28,112 nucleotides of DNA from a virus, in the IMG/VR virus record IMGVR_UViG_3300031669_000186, positions 1-28,112 of that record. One strand, written 5' to 3'. Numbering within the stretch: position 1 is the stretch's first letter; every line of letters starts with the position of its first letter. This document shows positions 18,883-28,112 of this stretch, piece after piece. Made by a program: the position numbers and the translations under genes. The notes under the pieces were generated by a model. It made no database searches and was not told the DNA's origin. It saw only the letters and a list, made by a program, of their open reading frames with translations.

Positions 18883-19586
18883 ATCATTTCAAATTCCCCG
18901 CGTTCGGTCACAGTAGCCGGCCACGCGGCGTAATGGGCTTCCACTAGCACCAGGGCGGCCCGGTATTCGATCGCGTGGACGTTGTCGCCATGTTCCCCTT
19001 GGAGCTTGTCCCGGAACGCTTCCACGGTGCCAAAGAAGCGGCCAGCGCGAAGGAATACGCCCTTTTCCGTGAGGAACGCCGCTAGAACGTCTTGCCGCGA
19101 ACCAATTGGACCGACCGCGAAATACGGACGGTCGCCCGTCAGTTTACCCGCGTCCCCAAGGTTCGCGCTGCGAAGGTTCGCGTCCCCAAGGTTCGCGCTG
19201 CGAAGGTTCGCGTCCCCAAGGTTCGCGCTGCGAAGGTCCGCGCCGTAAAGGTTCGCGTCCCCAAGGTCCGCGCCGTAAAGGTTCGCGCTGCGAAGGTTCG
19301 CGTCCCCAAGGTTCGCGCTGCGAAGGTCCGCGCTGCGAAGGTCCGCGCAGCGAAGGTCCGCGCCGTAAAGGTCCGCGTCCCCAAGGTCCGCGCTGCGAAG
19401 GTTCGCGCTGCGAAGGTCCGCGCAGCGAAGGTTCGCGCAGCGAAGGTCCGCGCAGCGAAGGTTCGCGCAGCGAAGGTCCGCTTTCGCGTTTATCGCGGCG
19501 GCCAACGTAATTGCGACGCTGTTGTCTTCGCACTCGTGGCTAAAAAGCACTTCAAGCGAAAAACGACTTTTAATTTCAATCTTCAT
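18822..19586 (-). CDS. pentapeptide-repeat protein
   Basis: This protein has 254 residues from the ATG at 19586 (MKIEIKSRFSLEVLF). GGAGAGG lies eight bases upstream, and earlier in-frame codons would fall in the promoter. Residues 36-145 are 22 uninterrupted A(D/N)LXX pentapeptides using only RC, RS, GD and YG as variable pairs, so a right-handed quadrilateral beta-helix is expected. The C-terminal 110 residues contain GSRQDVLAAFLTEKGVFLRAG and ALVLVEAHYAAW, a domain often attached to such repeats in phages. Pentapeptide proteins can mimic DNA (Qnr-type) or act as scaffolds; which applies is unknown. It has its own operator-bearing promoter. Confidence 0.88.
   Translation of the reverse strand: MKIEIKSRFSLEVLFSHECEDNSVAITLAAAINAKADLRCANLRCADLRCANLRCADLRSANLRSADLGDADLYGADLRCADLRSADLRSANLGDANLRSANLYGADLGDANLYGADLRSANLGDANLRSANLGDANLRSANLGDAGKLTGDRPYFAVGPIGSRQDVLAAFLTEKGVFLRAGRFFGTVEAFRDKLQGEHGDNVHAIEYRAALVLVEAHYAAWPATVTERGEFEMIYGDRLAALFTEQTGFDTHL
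19152..19481 (-). repeat. 22 x 15-bp tandem array encoding pentapeptides
   Basis: Twenty-two 15-bp units (minus strand GCGAACCTTCGCAGC and three close variants) without interruption. The homogeneity at synonymous sites indicates recent expansion or gene conversion and makes the array length prone to change. Confidence 0.95.
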
Positions 19587-19665: not shown

Positions 19666-19791
19666 TTATTTCTCGACTTCAACCTTGATGCCCCAGCGGA
19701 AAACCGCGGCATACAGGGCGCCGGCCGCCAATAAAAGCGGCTTTGTCCACCAGCGGAATTTAACGCGCACGGTAATGGAAAGTTCGGCCAT
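19666..19791 (-). CDS. small membrane protein
   Basis: This 41-residue protein starts at an ATG overlapping the ParB-like stop (TAATG). It reads MAELSITVRVKFRWWTKPLL, then LAAGALYAAVFRWG, and ends IKVEVEK. There is one clear transmembrane segment (about 17-31) flanked by basic and aromatic residues. Small proteins with the same 'V.V..K..WW.KP' opening occur in many phages of Proteobacteria. It is translationally coupled to the ParB-like gene. The function is unknown. Confidence 0.75.
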   Translation of the reverse strand: MAELSITVRVKFRWWTKPLLLAAGALYAAVFRWGIKVEVEK

Positions 19792-20642
19792 TATTCGCCC
19801 GCCGGCATCTTCAAGCCGCCCAACAGTTCGACCAGTTCCTTGCGGAGTTTGGTGGACAAGTGGCCGAAGCCGGGGTCGTCCAACAGTTTGGTCAACGTGT
19901 TGTGCATGGGCTCCGCGGCCTTACGTAGTGCCTTTTTGAATTCGGCTTGCGGCATATGCTTGGCGGTAACGCGGCCGGTCCCCGACTTGACCATGGCGGC
20001 CAGCAACACATCGCCCGCCTTGTCCCCGTGCTTCTTGATGGCTTCAATAGCCGTCGTGGCCGATATGACCGACCCCACTACCATGCGGCGGACGGCCAGC
20101 GACGCCGATGCCAGGGACAGCAGCCCGTCGACGTACTGTGCCGTCGAGTAGCCCAGGCGGCGGGCGATCTCTTTGGAGTCCCAGCCGAAGGCGGCCAGGC
20201 GCTTGCAAACGACGGCTTGCTCATAGGTGGACAGGGGTTCGCCTTCGTTGCCCACAACGAGGTCGACGGTAAGGTCTTCCATGCTGGTGCCGCGGGGCTT
20301 GATTACCACGGGCACGGCGGGCACTTCCACGCCTTCCGAAAGGGCCAGCAATACCGCTTCATGCCGGCAGTGCCCGCCCGTGACGTAGATAACTTCCGTG
20401 CCGTCTTCCAGGGCCACGAAGCCGGTCAACGGCTTGTCCTTGTAATAGCCGTTTGCCTTGATGCTGTCAGCAATCCAGCGCACGCGGCCGGTGTACACCA
20501 CGTTCTTGATGCGGGCGTTAAAGCCGTCAAGGATGCGGAGCCGGGTCGGTTCCACTTGCCACAGGTCAGCACTCACGGCGCCGACGGCCTTCATGGCGGC
20601 CTTTGTGTTGCCGGGGGTTAATTCGCGGGTAAAGTCTTCCAT
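19791..20642 (-). CDS. ParB/Spo0J-like protein
   Basis: This 283-residue protein has a ParB-type N-terminal nuclease/CTPase-like domain (about 25-130). It shows RWIADSIKANGYYKDKPLTG (box I region) and VTGGHCRHEAVLLAL (box II, 88-102). A helix-turn-helix segment follows (SKEIARRLGYSTAQYVDGLL, about 156-175). The C-terminal helical part (HMPQAEFKKALRKAAEPMHN) is not recognised. No ParA is present, so a regulatory or DNA-organising role is more likely than partition. GGAGAGG lies close upstream of the ATG at 20642, similar to the pentapeptide leader. It is driven from the operator-bearing promoter at 20688-20716. Confidence 0.8.
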   Translation of the reverse strand: MEDFTRELTPGNTKAAMKAVGAVSADLWQVEPTRLRILDGFNARIKNVVYTGRVRWIADSIKANGYYKDKPLTGFVALEDGTEVIYVTGGHCRHEAVLLALSEGVEVPAVPVVIKPRGTSMEDLTVDLVVGNEGEPLSTYEQAVVCKRLAAFGWDSKEIARRLGYSTAQYVDGLLSLASASLAVRRMVVGSVISATTAIEAIKKHGDKAGDVLLAAMVKSGTGRVTAKHMPQAEFKKALRKAAEPMHNTLTKLLDDPGFGHLSTKLRKELVELLGGLKMPAGE

Positions 20643-20665: not shown

Positions 20666-20908
20666 TTAAAAAGCAAATTCCGCTTGCATCTTAGGTAAAT
20701 AATTCACCTGTGTCAACGGGAAACAACGGTTATATTCTTCAAGGCAGTCGTCGCAAATCGGCTGGCCGCTCTTCGTTTCGTGGGGCTTCGACCGTATGAT
20801 TTTTGGCCGCAAGTCAAATGGGTATGGGGTTGGCGCTGTTGCATTACTCCGGCTCCTACGCGTGGACGGGTGCCAGGGGGAACGGCACGCGGCTATGATT
20901 GTTGGCAT
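20666..20908 (-). CDS. small CxxC protein overlapping the primase 3' end
   Basis: The coding-like part reads DLRPKIIRSKPHETKSGQPI, then CDDCLEEYNRCFPL and ends MQAEFAF. The cysteine pair CDDC and a third Cys suggest a small metal site. The start is uncertain: the ATG at 20908 gives 80 residues but overlaps the primase-helicase by 53 bases and has only a weak AAGG; no other good start is in frame. The promoter for the ParB-like operon is inside its last 17 codons. Unknown function. Confidence 0.5.
   Translation of the reverse strand: MPTIIAACRSPWHPSTRRSRSNATAPTPYPFDLRPKIIRSKPHETKSGQPICDDCLEEYNRCFPLTQVNYLPKMQAEFAF
20688..20716 (-). promoter_or_regulatory. promoter with palindromic operator in spacer (site 3)
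   Basis: On the minus strand TTGACA (20716-20711), 17 bases, TAAGAT (20693-20688). The spacer carries the half-sites AGGTGAAT and ATTTACCT. The promoter lies inside the 3' end of the 80-residue gene upstream and drives the ParB-like operon. Confidence 0.8.
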
Positions 20909-23219
20909 GTTCGTATGCCTTGGCGGCTTCCGCGGCGCCCTGAATGGCCCGGGCCTGGCTGTCCTTATGGACAAACAAGCGCGGTTTGCCGCCGTCCGGC
21001 AATACCAGATTGTTGACCCGACCTTCCACAAGGGCGGGATGGTAGGCATAGCCCAGGGCGTCTAACATTTCCTTGCGCTTGGAGTGCGTGACGCGGCGGG
21101 CAACCCCCAGTCGTTCCAGCAGGCGGTCGAGTTGAATAGACGATATCCAGCCGCCGCAAAAGCCGGGGAGCCCTTGCGCGATGGCTTCGTGGACTTCCTG
21201 TTCGACGCCGCCCGTGCTGGCGCTGATGGCGGCCGCGGTGCTGGTGGTGACGGGCGCCCGCTGGCAATGTGTGGCCGGGTTGTATTCGTCCGGAATTGGG
21301 AACGTGTGGAGCAAATCGGAAACGATGGCGTACCCGTCAGCACGAAGCCAGTCGTACAGCTTGGGGAAATACTCCCCATCCATGCCGTCGCGCTTCAAGT
21401 CTTCGGCCTGCTGTTGGGCACAAAACAAAATGCAAATCCGGCGGTCGTTTTGGGTCTTGCGTACAGCGTCCTTATGGTTGCTGTTCAGCATGAAATTGCC
21501 GCACACGTCCGCGGAGATTTGGTCGACGCCCTTGCCTTCAATCTCAAGGCCGTCGCCGCCGGTAATCATCGGCTTCAATTCCTCAAAGACTTCCGCCCGG
21601 CTGTCCGGCAAATAGATATCCTCAACGCCATAGAAAACCTTGCCCAGCATCCATGAATTGAATTGCGCGGCCAGCTTTGACGCCTTGGGCCAATGGACAT
21701 AACGGCGCCCCACGGCTTCCGCAACGCAACGGGTGAACAGGGTTTTGCCGTTACCTTCAACGCCCTGCAGCAGCGGCGCCCATTGGAACTTGACGCCCTT
21801 GTGTTGCACGCATGCGGCCATGTAGCACAGCAGGATAAAGCGGTCGCGGTCGTCCGGTAGCACCTTTGCCAAGTGGGCAAGGAAGGGCGTACCGTCGCCG
21901 GCCAGGCGCGGGACTTCGACCGGCCAATAGGTGTTAACGAAGGTTTGCCCGCCCCGCTGAATGATGGCGCCCGGCGGCTGGTCCGGTCGGAAGCAAGGGG
22001 AGTCGGCACGGGGGCAGCGGTACGCCTGGCTTTGCGTGAAGGCTTCCCAGGCGTCCCGGGTTGTCTTTTCGTTCGCGGTGTCCATGGTGAAGGTGTAGCC
22101 ACCATAGGCGACCTTGAATTGCTCCGGTTTGAGCATATTGCCGCCGGGTACTAGGACGCGGTGAAGGTCTTGGACATAGACGCAACCGGCGAACATATCC
22201 AATTGCATGTCGTTGCCGATAAAGGTCGCCCCCGTGACCAATGCCGGCCGTGGCGGTTCGGTGCTGGCGCTTGGTGCGGGGCCTTCTGGCGTGCCGGCCA
22301 CAGGTTCCGGGGCCTTGTCCGTCAGCACTTCAAATTGGCGCCCCACGGCGCCCAGGATAGTGCGCGGCAAATAGTCTTCGCGTTCGTACTTGTCCCGCAC
22401 CAGCGCCGACCGCTCCATAAGCCGCTTGATTCGTTCGCAATCCTTCCCGGTCCAAAAGGCCAGGTGTTGGGCTAGGGCAGCGTCGGCGCTGCTGGAATCG
22501 TAGGCTCGCACGGGGTCCGGATAGCAGCGGGTAAGGGCGTCAAGGTTTGCCGTCCACAGATCCGCAAAGCTGGCCCGGCCGCCAAACGCCGCCGCGGTTG
22601 ATTGTGACCGCAAAGCCCGGCGGATAAGTTCGTCGTCGTCGGTTGGTCCGCGCCATTCGGACGCGGGGCCTTCGGTCCAACCCTGTTCCAAGGATTGCAC
22701 GGCGTCCGGCGGAAAGTAGTTTGCAACCAGGGCCGGGAGTATCGCGGAGCAATCGGTCGCGGCGTTGCCGGCGGCGCTGGTCCCGGTCAGGGCAACGAAG
22801 CGGCCAGAGTGATAAAATTCTAAACCGTACTCAAGGTTTTTACAGCCATGCGGGGGCGGGCGTCCGGTGCCGAAGATATGCAGCCCCCGGCCGCTTTGGC
22901 TTACCTCAATGGCGGCCCCGGCGAACGCTCCGCAAAGTTGCTTTGCCATTGGGGACCAATCGGAGCCGTCGGCCAGCAAGCAGCCGTCGAGATCCAAGAA
23001 CCAGAAGGGGTCGGCTTCCGTGAAAACGAAAGCTAGCCCGAAACCTTGCCCAAAGTTGGTCGCTGCGGCGAGCGCTGTTTGCGCGTCCGTCCAAAACGCG
23101 GGGTCGTGCGCCGATACAACACGACCGGAACGGAAGTCGCAAGGCAATTTATCACACTTTCCAGGTCGGCTTTGGCTTGGAACAAGTTTGTACACAATGA
23201 ATTGCGCAAGATTTGTCAT
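20856..23219 (-). CDS. primase-helicase (prim-pol plus DUF5906/D5-type helicase)
   Basis: This protein has 787 residues from the ATG at 23219 (MTNLAQFIVYKLVPSQSRPG), the typical family start. The ATG at 23255, overlapping the HNH remnant's TGA, is an alternative. The N-terminal prim-pol-like part has the acidic pair in FLDLDG (D76, D78) and a His in SGRGLHIFGTG (H114). A middle segment (about 285-403) includes the linker domain duplicated at 17414. The C-terminal superfamily-3-type helicase has Walker A GVEGNGKT (486-493), an acidic VFYGVEDIYL Walker B and NSNHKDAVRK as the sensor asparagine. It would unwind and prime the phage genome. The last 170 residues hold a winged-helix-like segment (LLERLGVARRVTHSKRKEML). 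Confidence 0.9.
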   Translation of the reverse strand: MTNLAQFIVYKLVPSQSRPGKCDKLPCDFRSGRVVSAHDPAFWTDAQTALAAATNFGQGFGLAFVFTEADPFWFLDLDGCLLADGSDWSPMAKQLCGAFAGAAIEVSQSGRGLHIFGTGRPPPHGCKNLEYGLEFYHSGRFVALTGTSAAGNAATDCSAILPALVANYFPPDAVQSLEQGWTEGPASEWRGPTDDDELIRRALRSQSTAAAFGGRASFADLWTANLDALTRCYPDPVRAYDSSSADAALAQHLAFWTGKDCERIKRLMERSALVRDKYEREDYLPRTILGAVGRQFEVLTDKAPEPVAGTPEGPAPSASTEPPRPALVTGATFIGNDMQLDMFAGCVYVQDLHRVLVPGGNMLKPEQFKVAYGGYTFTMDTANEKTTRDAWEAFTQSQAYRCPRADSPCFRPDQPPGAIIQRGGQTFVNTYWPVEVPRLAGDGTPFLAHLAKVLPDDRDRFILLCYMAACVQHKGVKFQWAPLLQGVEGNGKTLFTRCVAEAVGRRYVHWPKASKLAAQFNSWMLGKVFYGVEDIYLPDSRAEVFEELKPMITGGDGLEIEGKGVDQISADVCGNFMLNSNHKDAVRKTQNDRRICILFCAQQQAEDLKRDGMDGEYFPKLYDWLRADGYAIVSDLLHTFPIPDEYNPATHCQRAPVTTSTAAAISASTGGVEQEVHEAIAQGLPGFCGGWISSIQLDRLLERLGVARRVTHSKRKEMLDALGYAYHPALVEGRVNNLVLPDGGKPRLFVHKDSQARAIQGAAEAAKAYEHANNHSRVPFPLAPVHA

Positions 23220-23251
23220 TGCGGCAAATGGGCCGCTAAGTGCTGTCCTAA

Positions 23252-23383
23252 TCATGGTTTTCCCGGCCAATCGTTGTTGCTTTTATTTACGTTGTCAGTC
23301 GCGCTTAATAATTGAAGGTTCCAAGGCACATGCAACCCGCACACCGTCGCACCTTTAAGCGGAACGACGTGGTCAACATGGAT
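23252..23383 (-). pseudogene. C-terminal half of an HNH endonuclease, in frame after the TetR-like stop
   Basis: Reading through the TGA at 23386-23384, the frame continues [20 protein letters not shown], then [16 protein letters not shown] to a TGA at 23252. The H-x-[17 protein letters not shown] and N-KSN pattern is the second half of a phage HNH nuclease of the T7-gp7.7 / lambda-Rap-like group. The N-terminal CxxC half is missing, and the TetR-like gene occupies its place. No start codon or ribosome site serves the fragment alone. It is a remnant unless TGA is read through. Confidence 0.75.
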
Positions 23384-23686
23384 TCAGCCCGCCAGCGTAT
23401 TCAATGCGCGGATCTTCAATTCCGGGTCGGCTTTCTGCGCGTGCAGATCGCCATGAGCCAACCCTTGAGCGATAATGGAAAGATTTTCCGTTAGTACCGC
23501 CGACCGCATTATGGTTCTGCGAAAATTTACCATTGTGCCGAAATATTTAGAAATAAGGGCTTCGGCGCAACCGATTTCTTTAGCCACAGATTCACGAGTC
23601 AGTTTTGAAAATCCTCCTGGTCGTTCAGCGACACTGATGGCGGCGGTGAGGATTTGATACTTTCGGTCGTCGGGCTTTTTTCGCAT
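23384..23686 (-). CDS. TetR-like regulator, N-terminal DNA-binding domain only
   Basis: This 100-residue protein has a TetR-type helix-turn-helix: RKYQILTAAISVAER, then LTRESVAKEIGCAEALISKY and a helix FRRTIMRSAV. It lacks the long ligand-binding domain of ordinary TetR proteins (about 190 residues). I recall such short forms in phages of Burkholderiales and Pseudomonads. The palindrome TTGACG-CTTC-CGTCAA sits in its own promoter, so autoregulation is likely. Its stop is followed in frame by half an HNH nuclease. The ATG at 23686 has no good ribosome site. Confidence 0.8.
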   Translation of the reverse strand: MRKKPDDRKYQILTAAISVAERPGGFSKLTRESVAKEIGCAEALISKYFGTMVNFRRTIMRSAVLTENLSIIAQGLAHGDLHAQKADPELKIRALNTLAG

Positions 23687-23714: not shown

Positions 23715-23743
23715 ATTATGTAATCTATTGACGCTTCCGTCAA
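23715..23743 (-). promoter_or_regulatory. TetR-like promoter with palindromic operator (site A)
   Basis: On the minus strand the promoter is TTGACG (23743-23738), 17 bases, CATAAT (23720-23715). The palindrome TTGACG-CTTC-CGTCAA occupies 23728-23743 (plus strand) and includes the -35. The same palindrome recurs at 25575-25590 and, with one mismatch, at 27436-27451. Confidence 0.75.
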
Positions 23744-23750
23744 CGATAAA

Positions 23751-24236
23751 TTAGAGGGTTCCGACTCCCGCGCAAAAAGCAGCATCCCCGCCGCCCGACG
23801 TGACAAGTTGCGCCCAAGCCAATTGCGCCGGCTCCCGGTCGTTGCCGGTGTAGTGCCAGCCGACGGCCTTTACTTCCCGGCTCACGAATTGGCCGATTAC
23901 CTGGCCGACGTGCTGGGGACCAATCAGGACCGGGTGCCAGCCTATCAGGTCGGCGGACTTCATGACCTCGTTAACCTGCTTGGACTCATTCGCCAGGCCG
24001 TAGCGCACAGGGACGCCCCGGGAATCAATCAGGGCGCCGACGTTGTTGCGGAACAAGCGCACCCCCTTGCGTGCCGCTTCCAGGCGCACCACAGCGGACA
24101 CGGCCGCTTCACTGGTGCCCTTTACTTCCGGCGGTAGGTCGTGGCCGCCGTGCATACCAAAGAGGGCTTGCAACTCATTGAGGGCGGCCATAGTGACCCC
24201 GTGGCGCACGGCCCATTGGTAGACGGCGGGGCTCAT
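23751..24236 (-). CDS. VRR-NUC nuclease
   Basis: This protein has 161 residues from the ATG at 24236, which overlaps the methyltransferase stop (ATGA) and has GGAG eight bases upstream. The core reads GVRLFRNNVGALIDSRGVPV, then RYGLANES, then SADLIGWHPVLIGPQHVGQVIG and FVSREVKAVGW. The Asp in ADLIGW and the E-x-K in REVKAVG form the PD-(D/E)xK active site of the VRR-NUC family. Such nucleases are stand-alone in phages and are suspected to act on branched or replicating DNA. Its position after the methyltransferase places it in the DNA metabolism operon. Confidence 0.9.
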   Translation of the reverse strand: MSPAVYQWAVRHGVTMAALNELQALFGMHGGHDLPPEVKGTSEAAVSAVVRLEAARKGVRLFRNNVGALIDSRGVPVRYGLANESKQVNEVMKSADLIGWHPVLIGPQHVGQVIGQFVSREVKAVGWHYTGNDREPAQLAWAQLVTSGGGDAAFCAGVGTL

Positions 24237-25375
24237 GGGCGGCACTCCATGTACGACCTTATCCAGGCTTCGGCGGCTTCCGCGTTGATCGCGTTACCAT
24301 AGGCGCGCAATCGTCCCACTCGGGCGGGATCCCCATTAGCCAGCGGGAATGTGCCGCGCTCAACTGGCCGCCACTTTCCATCCCGGCAGAAGAGCCAATC
24401 AACACCTCGCCAGAAACCGTTAGTCGGGCCGGGTTCGGGTGCGCAGCTAAGTAAACCGCTTGTGCTGATACCGTCAGGCATGTCAGCGCACCCCTGTCTC
24501 CCAAGCGTTTCGATGATTTCTCCGGGTTCTCCACGATCTCGTTGCTTTTCGGGGTCAACCAGCCCGCTAAGTGTGCGTCCGGCGGCAATGCTCCCCCGCC
24601 CTGATTCGGTCCCCCGTTGCTCCCGTCCGTCGCCCGTGGCGTATTCCACCCGGCCAGTTGCCCCGTAGTCTGCAAATTCTCCCCGCCCTGCCGACCCTGT
24701 GTTCCCGCGCCCGTCCCGTTGTTGCTCGTTGGAGTCGGCCAGCCCGCCAATTCGCTGGTTTGAGGAGTCGGCCAGCCCGCCAAACTCGCCGCCCATCCCA
24801 ATTTGTTCGGGGTCGTTCTCCCATCCCCACTGCACACCAGATTCACGTCGTTTGTGCATGGCAGACTGTTCGGAGTCGGCCGCCCAGTACAGTCGGTCGC
24901 GGATGTGCGGCGCGCCGACGCCCGCAGACGGAAACGGGACCGCCCCGAAGGCGTAACCCAAGGCTTCCATGTCAGTTTGTACAAGGTCGACCCATATATC
25001 AGCGTCTTTGCTGCTAACCTGCTCACCAAAGACGACGACAGGGCTTCGCTGTCCAATGAGGTGGAGCCATGCGGGCCATAAATGCCGCTCGTCAGCAAAC
25101 CCATTTCCTTTGCCTGCCGCGCTGAAAGGTTGGCAGGGACAAGAGCCAGTCCAAACAGGGCGGCTATCGGCCCATCCTGCACGTCGCAAGGCGTAGGACC
25201 AAACGCCGACTCCGGCGAAGAAATGACATTGAGTGTATCCGGCAAGGTCGAGGGGGGCAACATCTTCAATACTCCTTTGGTCTACGTCGCCCGGCGCAAT
25301 GTGGCCGGCGGCAATTAGGTTCCGTAACCACTGTGCGGCATACGGGTCGAATTCGTTGTAATAGGCTTTGCTCAT
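24233..25375 (-). CDS. DNA cytosine-5 methyltransferase
   Basis: This 380-residue enzyme transfers methyl from S-adenosylmethionine to cytosine C5. Motif I is [12 protein letters not shown] (52-63), motif IV is [14 protein letters not shown] with catalytic Cys81, motif VI is FGEQV (116-120, where ENV is more usual), motif VIII is RDRLYW (159-164), and motif X is [14 protein letters not shown] near the C-terminus. The target-recognition region (about 170-300) is Gly/Asp/Arg-rich with a doubled GGLADS. A 334-codon ORF in another frame covers this same region. The ATG at 25375 overlaps the stop of a tiny upstream ORF and has no ribosome site of its own, so it is probably coupled. The modification may protect phage DNA from host restriction; the recognition sequence is unknown. 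Confidence 0.92.
24259..25263 (-). CDS. ORF fully embedded in the methyltransferase gene (+1 frame)
   Basis: This frame is open for 334 codons from the ATG at 25263, which has AAAGGAGT (25278-25271) seven bases upstream, much better than the methyltransferase's own start. It reads [17 protein letters not shown], then [39 protein letters not shown] and [16 protein letters not shown] repeated LAGW.TP module follows (five LAGW copies), and it ends [20 protein letters not shown], then DCAPM. I recall the same motifs in proteins predicted beside or overlapping C5 methyltransferases in many phages. The family has no known function. A GC-driven shadow would not be expected to carry a consensus ribosome site or these motifs. 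Real dual coding is inferred. Confidence 0.75.
25271..25278 (-). promoter_or_regulatory. Shine-Dalgarno for the embedded ORF
   Basis: AAAGGAGT on the minus strand, seven bases before the ATG at 25263, inside the methyltransferase coding sequence around residues 33-35. It decides the start of the embedded ORF over the TTG two codons earlier. Confidence 0.8.
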
Positions 25376-25533
25376 GGCAGCGCGTCTTTAAATAAATCGG
25401 CGTAAGTTATCAATAATTTGGCGATATCTTCGTCGTTATCGAGATTCGCCAAATCTAGCCATTTCACAAAATTGACCATTTTTGCATGTGGGACATTCGG
25501 CCACATACCTTCTGAAAAAATTAATTCATCCAA
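25372..25533 (-). CDS. 53-residue acidic small protein
   Basis: The TTG start at 25533 has AAGGGG six bases upstream. The protein reads MDELIFSEGMWPNVPHAKMV, then NFVKWLDLANLDNDEDIAKL, and ends [13 protein letters not shown]. It is acidic and helical. Its stop overlaps the methyltransferase ATG (ATGA) and its start follows the helicase stop by 10 bases, so it bridges the two in the operon. Small acidic proteins like this are common in phage operons; the function is unknown. Confidence 0.65.
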   Translation of the reverse strand: MDELIFSEGMWPNVPHAKMVNFVKWLDLANLDNDEDIAKLLITYADLFKDALP

Positions 25534-25543
25534 TTGCTACCCC

Positions 25544-27298
25544 TTATTGATTATTTGCAAAGTATGCCTCGGCGTTGACGGTTCCGTCAATACCATATTT
25601 AGCAAGCTCCGCGGCCACACGCTCCGCAAGCTCCGACGACTCCTTGGCGTTGAGCGTTTGAGCGTTGGCAACGTCGACCCCGAAGCGATAATAAAAGCGG
25701 CGGTAACTTTCGGACTCCCCACGGCCTTGGGCATTCTCAAGACCCGCCCACCAGGCAATGACGTTCCGCAATGCCTTTTGGCCTTCGCGGCGTTCCCAAT
25801 GCCGACGACGGACAGCCCCGACGACTTCCGGGCCGGCGCCGTAGGGAATGACCGGGTCGCCGTCAATGCGGGCAATCTCCCCGCGCAAGGCGGCCAGCGT
25901 TTCCGCGTCAAGCTCCAACAGGTCGCCGTCGACAAACTCCGGGGCGCTTCGGCTTGGCGGGGGCGGGTAGTGGCCGCAATACGGGCAGCATTTGTAGACG
26001 CGCTCATAGGGTTGGATGCACTCCGGGTTGACGCAAACCCGCATTGGGATGGCGTCCGACTTGCCGCTGCTCCGGCGGTCCCGGCGGTCTAGCGACCATT
26101 CCTGTTGCGCGTCCGGGAGCCCGTGCCGGAGTACGTTGTTCACGTGGTCAATAATGAATGCGACGGGCTTATCGCTGGCCGCAATCGCCGCCCGCCGCTG
26201 TTCGTCCGTTATGTGGGCATGCACGGCCGCGGCTTCCTTGGATAGCATCAAGCGCAAGGCCCGCCCAAACTGCTGGCAGAATAGCGCGAAGGACTCCGTC
26301 GGCCTGGCGAAGCTCACGACCTCAATTGCTGGCAGGTCGAAGCCTTCCCCGAACAAATCCACGTTCACGAGTTGCAGCACCTCCCTAGCCTTGAAGCGCC
26401 GGAGAATTTGAGCCCGCAAGGCGTCCGGGGTCTTGGCGCTTACCACTTCCGCGGACACGCCGGCCGCACGGAACGCCGCGGCAATCTCGGTCGCCGCTTC
26501 CACGTCGACGGCAAAGGTAACGCCCAGCTTGCCCGGCGCCAACTTGAGATAGTGCGCCACCACGTCCCCGGTAATATGGGACTTGTGGACCGCCTTGCGT
26601 AGCTGGTCCGCGTTGTAATCCCCGGTCGCCTGGCTCAGTGCCACGGCCGATAGGTCAAGGTCGGACGGCGGCGCAAAAATGCGGTAATTCGTCAAATACC
26701 CCATGTTGATAATGTCCCGCATGGAAGGCGCCAATACCATTGCGTCGACCAGCCCGTCAGCATGCCGCCCCAGCCCCTTGCCGTCCGCCCGCCGCGGCGT
26801 GGCCGTTGGAAGTAGCGACCGGGCGTTGGGGAACATGCCGGCCGCAATGCCCCACTTGTTGGCCTTTAGGACGTGGTGCGCTTCATCTTGAACGACCAAG
26901 CGGGTTTGCATGAAGAAGGGGTCGGTCGGGTCCATGCGTATGACGGTATCAACCCCGCCGACGCCGGTCTTCGCGTTCGGGTCAAAGAACGAATAGCCAA
27001 GCTCCGCAACCTGTAGGGCGCTGATTATCCGTATCAGGTTCGACCCCTTCTTAGCACCAAGGATGCGATGCCGCACGCCGTTACGGGCCAGGGCGATAGA
27101 AATTTGGCTTACCAATTCTTGCCGGTGCGCGATGGCGATAGAGGCGCCCGGTTCATCATAAAGCACCTTTGATAGAAGGACGGTTTTACCGGAGCCCGTG
27201 GCCGCCACGGGCATTACGTTCAAAGCGCCAGCGTTCCAGGCTTCGTACACGCGGCGCTCAAGCTCGGCTTGGAAGGGGCGAAGTTCAACCGGCGGCAT
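25544..27298 (-). CDS. superfamily 2 DEAD/DEAH-box helicase with zinc ribbon
   Basis: This 584-residue helicase has Walker A ATGSGKT (33-39), motif Ia IAIAHRQELV, motif II DEAH (138-141), motif III LPTATPRR, and motif VI FCQQFGRALR (about 343-352). The central spacing is that of UvsW/SSL2-type phage helicases. A CVNPEC...CCPYCGH zinc ribbon (about 419-441) and a unique 150-residue C-terminus follow. The helicase probably remodels DNA in replication or recombination. GGAGG lies close upstream of the ATG at 27298. It overlaps the methyltransferase-tail ORF by 14 bases. Confidence 0.9.
   Translation of the reverse strand: MPPVELRPFQAELERRVYEAWNAGALNVMPVAATGSGKTVLLSKVLYDEPGASIAIAHRQELVSQISIALARNGVRHRILGAKKGSNLIRIISALQVAELGYSFFDPNAKTGVGGVDTVIRMDPTDPFFMQTRLVVQDEAHHVLKANKWGIAAGMFPNARSLLPTATPRRADGKGLGRHADGLVDAMVLAPSMRDIINMGYLTNYRIFAPPSDLDLSAVALSQATGDYNADQLRKAVHKSHITGDVVAHYLKLAPGKLGVTFAVDVEAATEIAAAFRAAGVSAEVVSAKTPDALRAQILRRFKAREVLQLVNVDLFGEGFDLPAIEVVSFARPTESFALFCQQFGRALRLMLSKEAAAVHAHITDEQRRAAIAASDKPVAFIIDHVNNVLRHGLPDAQQEWSLDRRDRRSSGKSDAIPMRVCVNPECIQPYERVYKCCPYCGHYPPPPSRSAPEFVDGDLLELDAETLAALRGEIARIDGDPVIPYGAGPEVVGAVRRRHWERREGQKALRNVIAWWAGLENAQGRGESESYRRFYYRFGVDVANAQTLNAKESSELAERVAAELAKYGIDGTVNAEAYFANNQ
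25561..25590 (-). promoter_or_regulatory. candidate TetR-type operator with internal promoter (site B)
   Basis: The 16-bp palindrome TTGACGGTTCCGTCAA (25575-25590, 7-bp arms) lies in the last codons of the helicase gene. On the minus strand TTGACG (25590-25585), 18 bases, CATACT (25566-25561) could start transcription of the tiny ORF, methyltransferase and nuclease. The codons here encode GIDGTVN, so the palindrome could be accidental. Confidence 0.5.
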
Positions 27299-27419
27299 TG
27301 CGGGCGGCCTCCAATCGAGCGTTGGCGATGGCGGTATATTGCGGGTCTAATTCAAAACCAACGAACTGGAAACCCTCAAGAATCGCAAGGCCGTGGCGGC
27401 AATCCATAGTCAAAATCAT
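27285..27419 (-). pseudogene. C-terminal tail of an N4/N6 DNA methyltransferase
   Basis: This 44-codon ORF (MILTMDCRHGLAILEGFQFV, then GFELDPQYTAIANARLEAAR) matches the final segment of N4/N6-type methyltransferases, where a 'GSGTTG..... EGF.F.GFELDP.Y..IA..RL' pattern closes the SAM pocket. The GSGTTG is replaced by DCRHG and everything before it is missing. It has no ribosome site. It starts next to a divergent promoter region and overlaps the helicase start, so it is likely the remnant of a deleted methyltransferase gene. Confidence 0.65.
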
Positions 27420-27435
27420 TTTTATCTATACCCTG

Positions 27436-27479
27436 TTGACGGTAGCGTCATTATCGGCAACAATGGCAACTCTCGTCAA
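27436..27479. promoter_or_regulatory. divergent promoter region with TetR-type operator (site C)
   Basis: The palindrome-like TTGACGGTAGCGTCAT (27436-27451) contains the -35 of a rightward promoter (TTGACG, 17 bases, AACAAT at 27459-27464). On the minus strand TTGACG (27479-27474), 18 bases, GATAAT (27455-27450) could drive the helicase operon. The operator overlaps its -10 by two bases, so one protein could control both directions. Confidence 0.65.
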
Positions 27480-27500: not shown

Positions 27501-28112
27501 ATGTCCATGCAAATCAGCGTCGACCCTGCAGCCCTCTCGCAAGAACAGCGCGAAGCGGTAGCCGGTTTCATTCTCGCTTACCCCGCCAAGGCTTGCGCCG
27601 GAACGTGCGGCAACCATGCCGTCGCGGAGATTCACGCTCACACGCACGCGGCGCCGGTAGCTGCTACTACTGCCCCGGTCGTCGATGAATTGGCGGTGTT
27701 GCAACACGACCACGAAAGCACCTTGCCGGAAAGCGCCTTTGGCAAACCGGACGAAGCTGCCGCGGCCTTCGGAGTGCCCCCCGCCCCTTTGCCCCTTGGG
27801 ACGACCGCTGCCCCCTCTATTGCGGTTGCCGCTCCGTCCTTGACTGCCCCCGCGGTTATGCCGGCAACTACTTTGACCGCGACGTCGACCGTCCCCGCAC
27901 CCCCTGCACCGACGCCCGCGAACGCGGCGCCGATTGCTGCACCCCCTCCCGGGAGCCCTGTCGGCGGCGTTGAGTTGGACAAACGCGGCTTACCGTGGGA
28001 TAACCGGATTCACGCCGGCACCAAGCGCAAGAACGCGGACGGTTCGTGGACGGCCAAGCGTGGCGTCGACCCGGCGCTGGTTGCCACTGTTGAAGCAGAA
28101 TTGCGCCAAGTC
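27501..28112 (+). CDS. Pro/Ala-rich protein with conserved phage C-terminal motif, truncated at window end
   Basis: This is at least 204 residues with AGGAG nine bases before the ATG. The first 55 residues contain CAGTCGNHAVAEIHAHTHA, a Cys/His cluster that could bind metal. A long Ala/Pro/Thr linker (about 60-155) follows. Then comes ELDKRGLPWDNRIHAGTKRK, NADGSWTAKRGVDPALVATV and EAELRQV. That last block is a phage motif I recall in proteins of unknown function near recombination genes. The gene begins the rightward operon and is controlled by the site C region. The stop codon lies beyond the window. Confidence 0.75.
   Translation, partial: MSMQISVDPAALSQEQREAVAGFILAYPAKACAGTCGNHAVAEIHAHTHAAPVAATTAPVVDELAVLQHDHESTLPESAFGKPDEAAAAFGVPPAPLPLGTTAAPSIAVAAPSLTAPAVMPATTLTATSTVPAPPAPTPANAAPIAAPPPGSPVGGVELDKRGLPWDNRIHAGTKRKNADGSWTAKRGVDPALVATVEAELRQV

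Follow-up and report, generated by a model that had tools for sequence, protein, structure and literature searches.

A ligand-domain-free TetR_N phage protein as a probable autoregulated repressor of early genes

The regulator gene and the palindromes around it

The window, the whole 28,112-base stretch of viral DNA analysed here, carries on its minus strand a helicase gene (25544–27298), a small open reading frame of 53 amino acids (25372–25533), a gene for a C5 cytosine DNA methyltransferase (24233–25375), one for an endonuclease-like protein of phrog_93 (23751–24245), a gene for a 100-amino-acid TetR_N-type regulator of the phrog_8723 family (23384–23686) and, downstream of the regulator, a primase gene (20856–23270). 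Elsewhere in the window (~19150–19480), in-frame 15-base tandem repeats encode a pentapeptide-repeat protein (LRCANLRCADLRSANL...), which varies between the window and its near relative L008, whose DNA is ~89–98% identical over the main matching stretches.

The regulator matched phrog_8723, a family annotated as 'unknown function', over residues 2–99 (E 2e-27), and 94 phage records, mainly Klebsiella Jedunavirus-like, contained homologues, as did IMG/VR contigs. The Pfam TetR_N profile (PF00440) scored the window protein at 17.8 bits, under the 24-bit cut-off, and matched 33 of 33 aligned family members, with a best E of 1e-10. An AlphaFold2 model was confident and all-helical (pLDDT 92), with helices at residues 5–20, 31–38, 42–49 (the recognition helix), 52–66, 69–77 and 88–99. 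It aligned over nearly its full length to TetR-family chains, including LuxR/HapR, EilR and AmvR structures (best Z 10.7, rmsd 4.2 over 97 residues), with weak Foldseek E-values (best 5e-3), and viral relatives of equal size superposed well on it. The C-terminal ligand-binding/dimerisation domain of TetR (~200 residues in total) is absent, the regulator having 100 residues and only three short helices beyond helix 4; the description of a 100-residue TetR-type protein without a separate ligand domain, first made in a sequence-only reading of this DNA, thus holds, and we therefore call the protein a TetR_N-only regulator rather than a classical TetR repressor. With the TetR family it shares the TetR_N helix-turn-helix and a palindromic operator over a promoter, whereas it is about half the usual length and its predicted regulon is that of phage early genes, genome-wide. 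In Acinetobacter phage Scuro (L004, 21424–21924) and Shewanella phage SppYZU01 (L016, 10797–11297) the regulator is N-terminally extended to ~166 amino acids, and the Scuro extension resembles, by eye, a second, degenerate helix-turn-helix.

Only three places in the 28,112-base record match the palindrome TTGACG-N4-CGTCAA with at most one arm mismatch, against a mean of 0.10 expected from Markov-1 simulations of the window (maximum 2 in 300). O1 (TTGACGCTTCCGTCAA, 23728–23743) and O2 (TTGACGGTTCCGTCAA, 25575–25590) are exact and O3 (TTGACGGTAGCGTCAT, 27436–27451) has one mismatch, at its last base, so that all three palindromes proposed earlier are present, the third in imperfect form. Each of these predicted operators, listed without a strand, overlaps a sigma-70-like −35, again as proposed. 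O1 starts 57 bp upstream of the regulator ATG and includes the −35 of the regulator promoter (23715–23743, minus strand; TTGACG-17-CATAAT), a layout shared by relatives. O2 lies at the 3′ end of the helicase gene, just before the methyltransferase group as originally described, where it coincides with the −35 of a possible promoter for the post-helicase genes (25561–25590, minus strand; TTGACG-18-CATACT), the 53-amino-acid open reading frame and the methyltransferase gene being downstream. O3 lies in the divergent early region in front of the helicase gene and contacts both promoters there: it holds the −35 of the rightward early promoter (27436–27464, plus strand; TTGACG-17-AACAAT), which precedes a gene at 27501, and the edge of the −10 (GATAAT) of the leftward early promoter of the helicase operon (27450–27479, minus strand; TTGACG-18-GATAAT), whose −35 and −10 are kept within the clade. 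In L008, exonuclease, SSB and DNA polymerase genes are found downstream of the rightward early promoter.

The 44-amino-acid open reading frame MILTMDCRHGLAILEGFQFVGFELDPQYTAIANARLEAARNAAG (27285–27419, minus strand) joins the apparent two ends of a DNA methyltransferase, the apparent full-size counterpart of which is a DNA methyltransferase of 379–399 amino acids or more in L025, L033 and L011, and the divergent region of L008 holds a different remnant, of 31 amino acids. The first gene after the operator thus looks like the site of independent internal deletions in the window and in L008.

Predicted operators in related phages

The palindrome was located 53–94 bp upstream of the regulator gene in 14 of 15 window-clade relatives and in 5/5 Jedunavirus/Peatvirus-type loci, and in both groups it supplies the regulator's −35, with the −10 coming 17–18 bp after TTGACG. 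Across 13 relatives' regulator promoters, 11 of the 12 arm positions were 92–100% identical, the last arm base was 54% identical, and the four centre bases varied (38–54% identical). L013 had no site before its regulator gene and retained its other sites. The divergent region of 14 related loci follows a shared plan, in which a TTGAC −35, 17–18 bases and a GATAAT-like −10 are followed by the operator, whose other arm doubles as −35 for the promoter facing the other way (in L034 the operator carries two mismatches); where a site is imperfect, it is usually its intact TTGACG arm that forms the −35 of the promoter with the better −10. Footprinting of this kind strongly backs the autoregulator idea, and with it the proposal of an autoregulator with a multi-site operator set.

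The set is larger than the three sites first supposed: a fourth conserved place lies just beyond the window, and up to 16 sites occur in relatives. In L008 this fourth site falls where the exonuclease gene ends, upstream of a small open reading frame and the SSB gene, and relatives too have a site between the exonuclease and SSB genes. In Klebsiella phage JD001 (L005), 11 sites fall within one mismatch, compared with 0.25 expected, and 10 of them lie 40–80 bp upstream of an annotated start, in zones that make up 5.6% of the genome (P ~3e-12); Vibrio phage 138 has nine, and Scuro has six that match TTGACA-N4-TGTCAA to within one mismatch. An unbiased palindrome scan with spacers of 0–8 ranked TTGACG with a gap of 4 first in JD001, 138, PEAT2 and L055, and did not rank it first in the window and several other genomes, where tandem repeats and G+C-rich triplets dominate. 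Twelve genomes with the regulator contained 4–16 sites, and eight terminase-related phages without it contained 0, 0, 0, 0, 0, 1, 1 and 1 (Mann-Whitney P 1e-4), a comparison that is supportive rather than decisive since matching of the controls did not extend to every other gene.

The sites are found at the helicase, exonuclease/SSB and regulator genes, as well as at gene islands set into the late region, and the predicted targets would be early rather than late genes. In JD001, operators mark small plus-strand gene islands within the minus-strand late region, at gp07, gp14, gp27 and gp31. Because operators sit on those islands, their open reading frames are likely early, suggesting early expression from within the late region.

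O2 is the weakest of the three sites and a probable operator. Its codons, ATT GAC GGA ACC GTC AA-, encode Ile-Asp-Gly-Thr-Val-Asn (IDGTVN), and the site, which overlaps a conserved coding motif, is less conserved in close relatives and lost in several. There is some chance, though less than even, that coding coincidence explains O2 and that only O1 and O3 are true operators, as IDGTV is kept in the palindrome-less relatives L024, L025, L028 and L033, and relatives in which Asp takes the place of Asn drop the palindrome yet retain IDGTV. However, where Asn follows, six of seven loci hold ATT GAC GGN ACC GTC AAY, with third-base variation inside the operator confined to the spacer, and the post-helicase place carries a site in Jedunavirus JD001 and Vibrio phage 138 and other dyads in AeroV_348 and PD0307, which argues for O2 as an operator.

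In some other clades the operator is changed in sequence. The PD0307 clade has the recognition helix TPPALTYHF as against AEALISKYF, and TTGACG-N4-CGTCAA is absent from its regulator promoter; dyads of roughly GCTAACTTT-N7-AAAGTTAGC instead occupy the exonuclease/SSB, divergent and post-helicase places, the dyad before the regulator being weak (5–6 mismatches of 18). The Scuro dyad reads TTGACA-N4-TGTCA(A/T/G), and AeroV_348 carries GGGCTA-N4-TAGCCC behind both the helicase gene and the regulator, its divergent region having only an imperfect match. That the places are kept and the sequence changed agrees with the prediction that regulator and operator change together. Residue 43 is Gly, Ala or Ser in regulators with TTGAC sites and Pro or Gln in other clades, a suggestive tie to operator type, but AeroV_348 breaks the pattern (Ala with GGGCTA), and common descent is a confounder. 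A search of the regulator's own promoter gave no operator in AeroV_348 or in several marine clades (the Alteromonas, SFCi1, PY6, Vibrio 97.13 and 1.009.O relatives), and for these marine relatives no palindrome was found. The expectation that the palindrome lies beside homologous short TetR genes was thus borne out in the window clade and in Jedunavirus/Peatvirus and took a changed form in some other clades, whereas no operator turned up in several marine ones.

These patterns also bear on whether the palindrome is instead the target of a host regulator, through RutR-like binding of TTGACC...GGTCAA, with the phage gene incidental. TetR-family operators do include TTGAC half-sites, which counts in favour of such a host target. 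However, the palindrome is shared by phages of Klebsiella, Pectobacterium and Vibrio, among others, tracks the presence of the phage gene and gives way to another dyad where the recognition helix differs, making a host target most improbable.

A predicted feedback circuit for early genes

We consider it quite probable that the 100-amino-acid protein acts without a ligand to repress early genes, its own among them, in a negative-feedback loop. At the sequence level this reading draws on the sites, on where they lie in promoters, on how well they are conserved and on the fact that they accompany the regulator. From these we infer dimerisation, binding, repression and timing as follows. Upon infection, the early promoters would be free and fire via host sigma-70, and the regulator would build up from its own early promoter. 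A regulator dimer would then bind the 16-bp palindrome, with one helix-turn-helix per TTGAC(G) arm, and would exclude RNA polymerase, because the palindrome covers −35 to about −20 of the regulator's own and the rightward promoters and, in the leftward helicase promoter, the edge of the −10. Early transcription would thereby be shut off or limited, that of the regulator's own gene included, and the circuit would be one of negative feedback because the regulator lies within the early region that it would repress.

The many sites per genome at replication-gene promoters could also fit a protein that activates early or middle promoters, or one that acts on them both ways. We think this improbable, because a dimer bound from −35 to −20, with the −35 itself inside the palindrome, would block polymerase, the promoters already have good −35 and −10 elements, and a site on the activator's own gene would mean runaway activation; the position of the sites points to repression by occlusion. 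According to the sequence-only reading, a TetR-type protein of this length with no ligand domain would have to be released in some other way. This does not follow, since injected DNA arrives free of repressor and no release step is necessary: in phages that enter a repressor-free cell and seemingly do not lysogenise, such a protein can serve as a one-way timer or to limit expression by feedback, in the manner of small plasmid repressors. Many relatives, lytic for the most part and with isolates on Klebsiella and Vibrio among them, share the layout.

The fold of the regulator is that of TetR_N and lacks a defining part of classical TetR, and as a ligand-free, autoregulated early repressor the protein would belong to a kind already known. 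KorA and ArdK of conjugative plasmids are likewise helix-turn-helix repressors of ~100 amino acids without a ligand domain, acting on their own and several other promoters through sites on the −10 or −35 (PMC9723621). In the R388 negative-feedback network of small repressors, ArdK among them, a burst followed by shut-off has been measured (PMC3937220), and the logic of entry into a repressor-free cell, burst and then shut-off is one that the phage circuit would share. By contrast, KorA and ArdK belong to the KorA-type family, ArdK can bind direct repeats, and they serve plasmid maintenance rather than lytic growth. Against the beta-alpha dimerisation module of the KorA type, the regulator model has only helices past the helix-turn-helix and no strand; KorA and ArdK were not among the fold-search matches listed, which is no evidence against a shared fold.

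The tetR genes of phiPLPE, CP-T1 and 138 have been noted before, with co-option from bacteria suggested and operators not described (PMC3391216). These genes and that of JD001, annotated as 'TetR' by similarity only, encode the same protein family, phrog_8723, and in 138 and JD001, where the homologues are gp14 and gp45 respectively, the neighbourhood (helicase, primase) is as in the window. The GC-rich repeats listed in the same report (PMC3391216) were ruled out as operators, being long tandem repeats and unrelated. In the open-access literature searched, we found no description of phage TetR operators, of Jedunavirus regulators or of this operator set and regulon.

Lambdoid immunity repressors and mycobacteriophage stoperators are precedents for one phage protein acting at many sites genome-wide. 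The operator set, common to many promoters, resembles theirs, and a ParB-like gene (phrog_1033; 19791–20642, minus strand) lies in the same region, so that repression for lysogeny or immunity, in a prophage state either temperate or plasmid-like, has to be weighed. The likeness to those systems is in the many dispersed sites, whereas fold and purpose differ and the window gives no sign of lysogeny; no ParA was recognised among the window open reading frames examined. Scanning 84,980 genomes returned two relatives, both in contigs of metagenome-assembled genomes, and no clear prophage, and 72,556 plasmids held no full-length relative. Integrases are mostly missing from the relatives' annotated early regions, PY6 having a 'putative integrase', and the window is a partial genome, outside which an integrase could lie. 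Phage 138 is described as lytic (PMC3391216). There is accordingly little likelihood, in our judgement, that the protein maintains lysogeny, and a repressor of early genes in lytic growth remains the preferred reading.

We are evenly divided on a broader proposal, that a widespread TetR_N-only phage repressor family would constitute a transplantable early shut-off switch, using the same four promoter places across deep divergence with the operator rewritten along with the recognition helix, and would thus provide a natural series of re-tuned regulator–operator pairs in virulent phages. The operator variants are candidate orthogonal repressor pairs of about half the size of TetR, and small open reading frame islands in late regions become recognisable, via their operators, as likely early genes. 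The family phrog_8723 gains a specific proposed function, and the circuit can be tested in the cultured lytic phages Jedunavirus JD001 and Vibrio 138, since the gene is named, the operator readable and the target promoters predicted; this touches the question of how the early phase is ended in many virulent phages that depend on host RNA polymerase.
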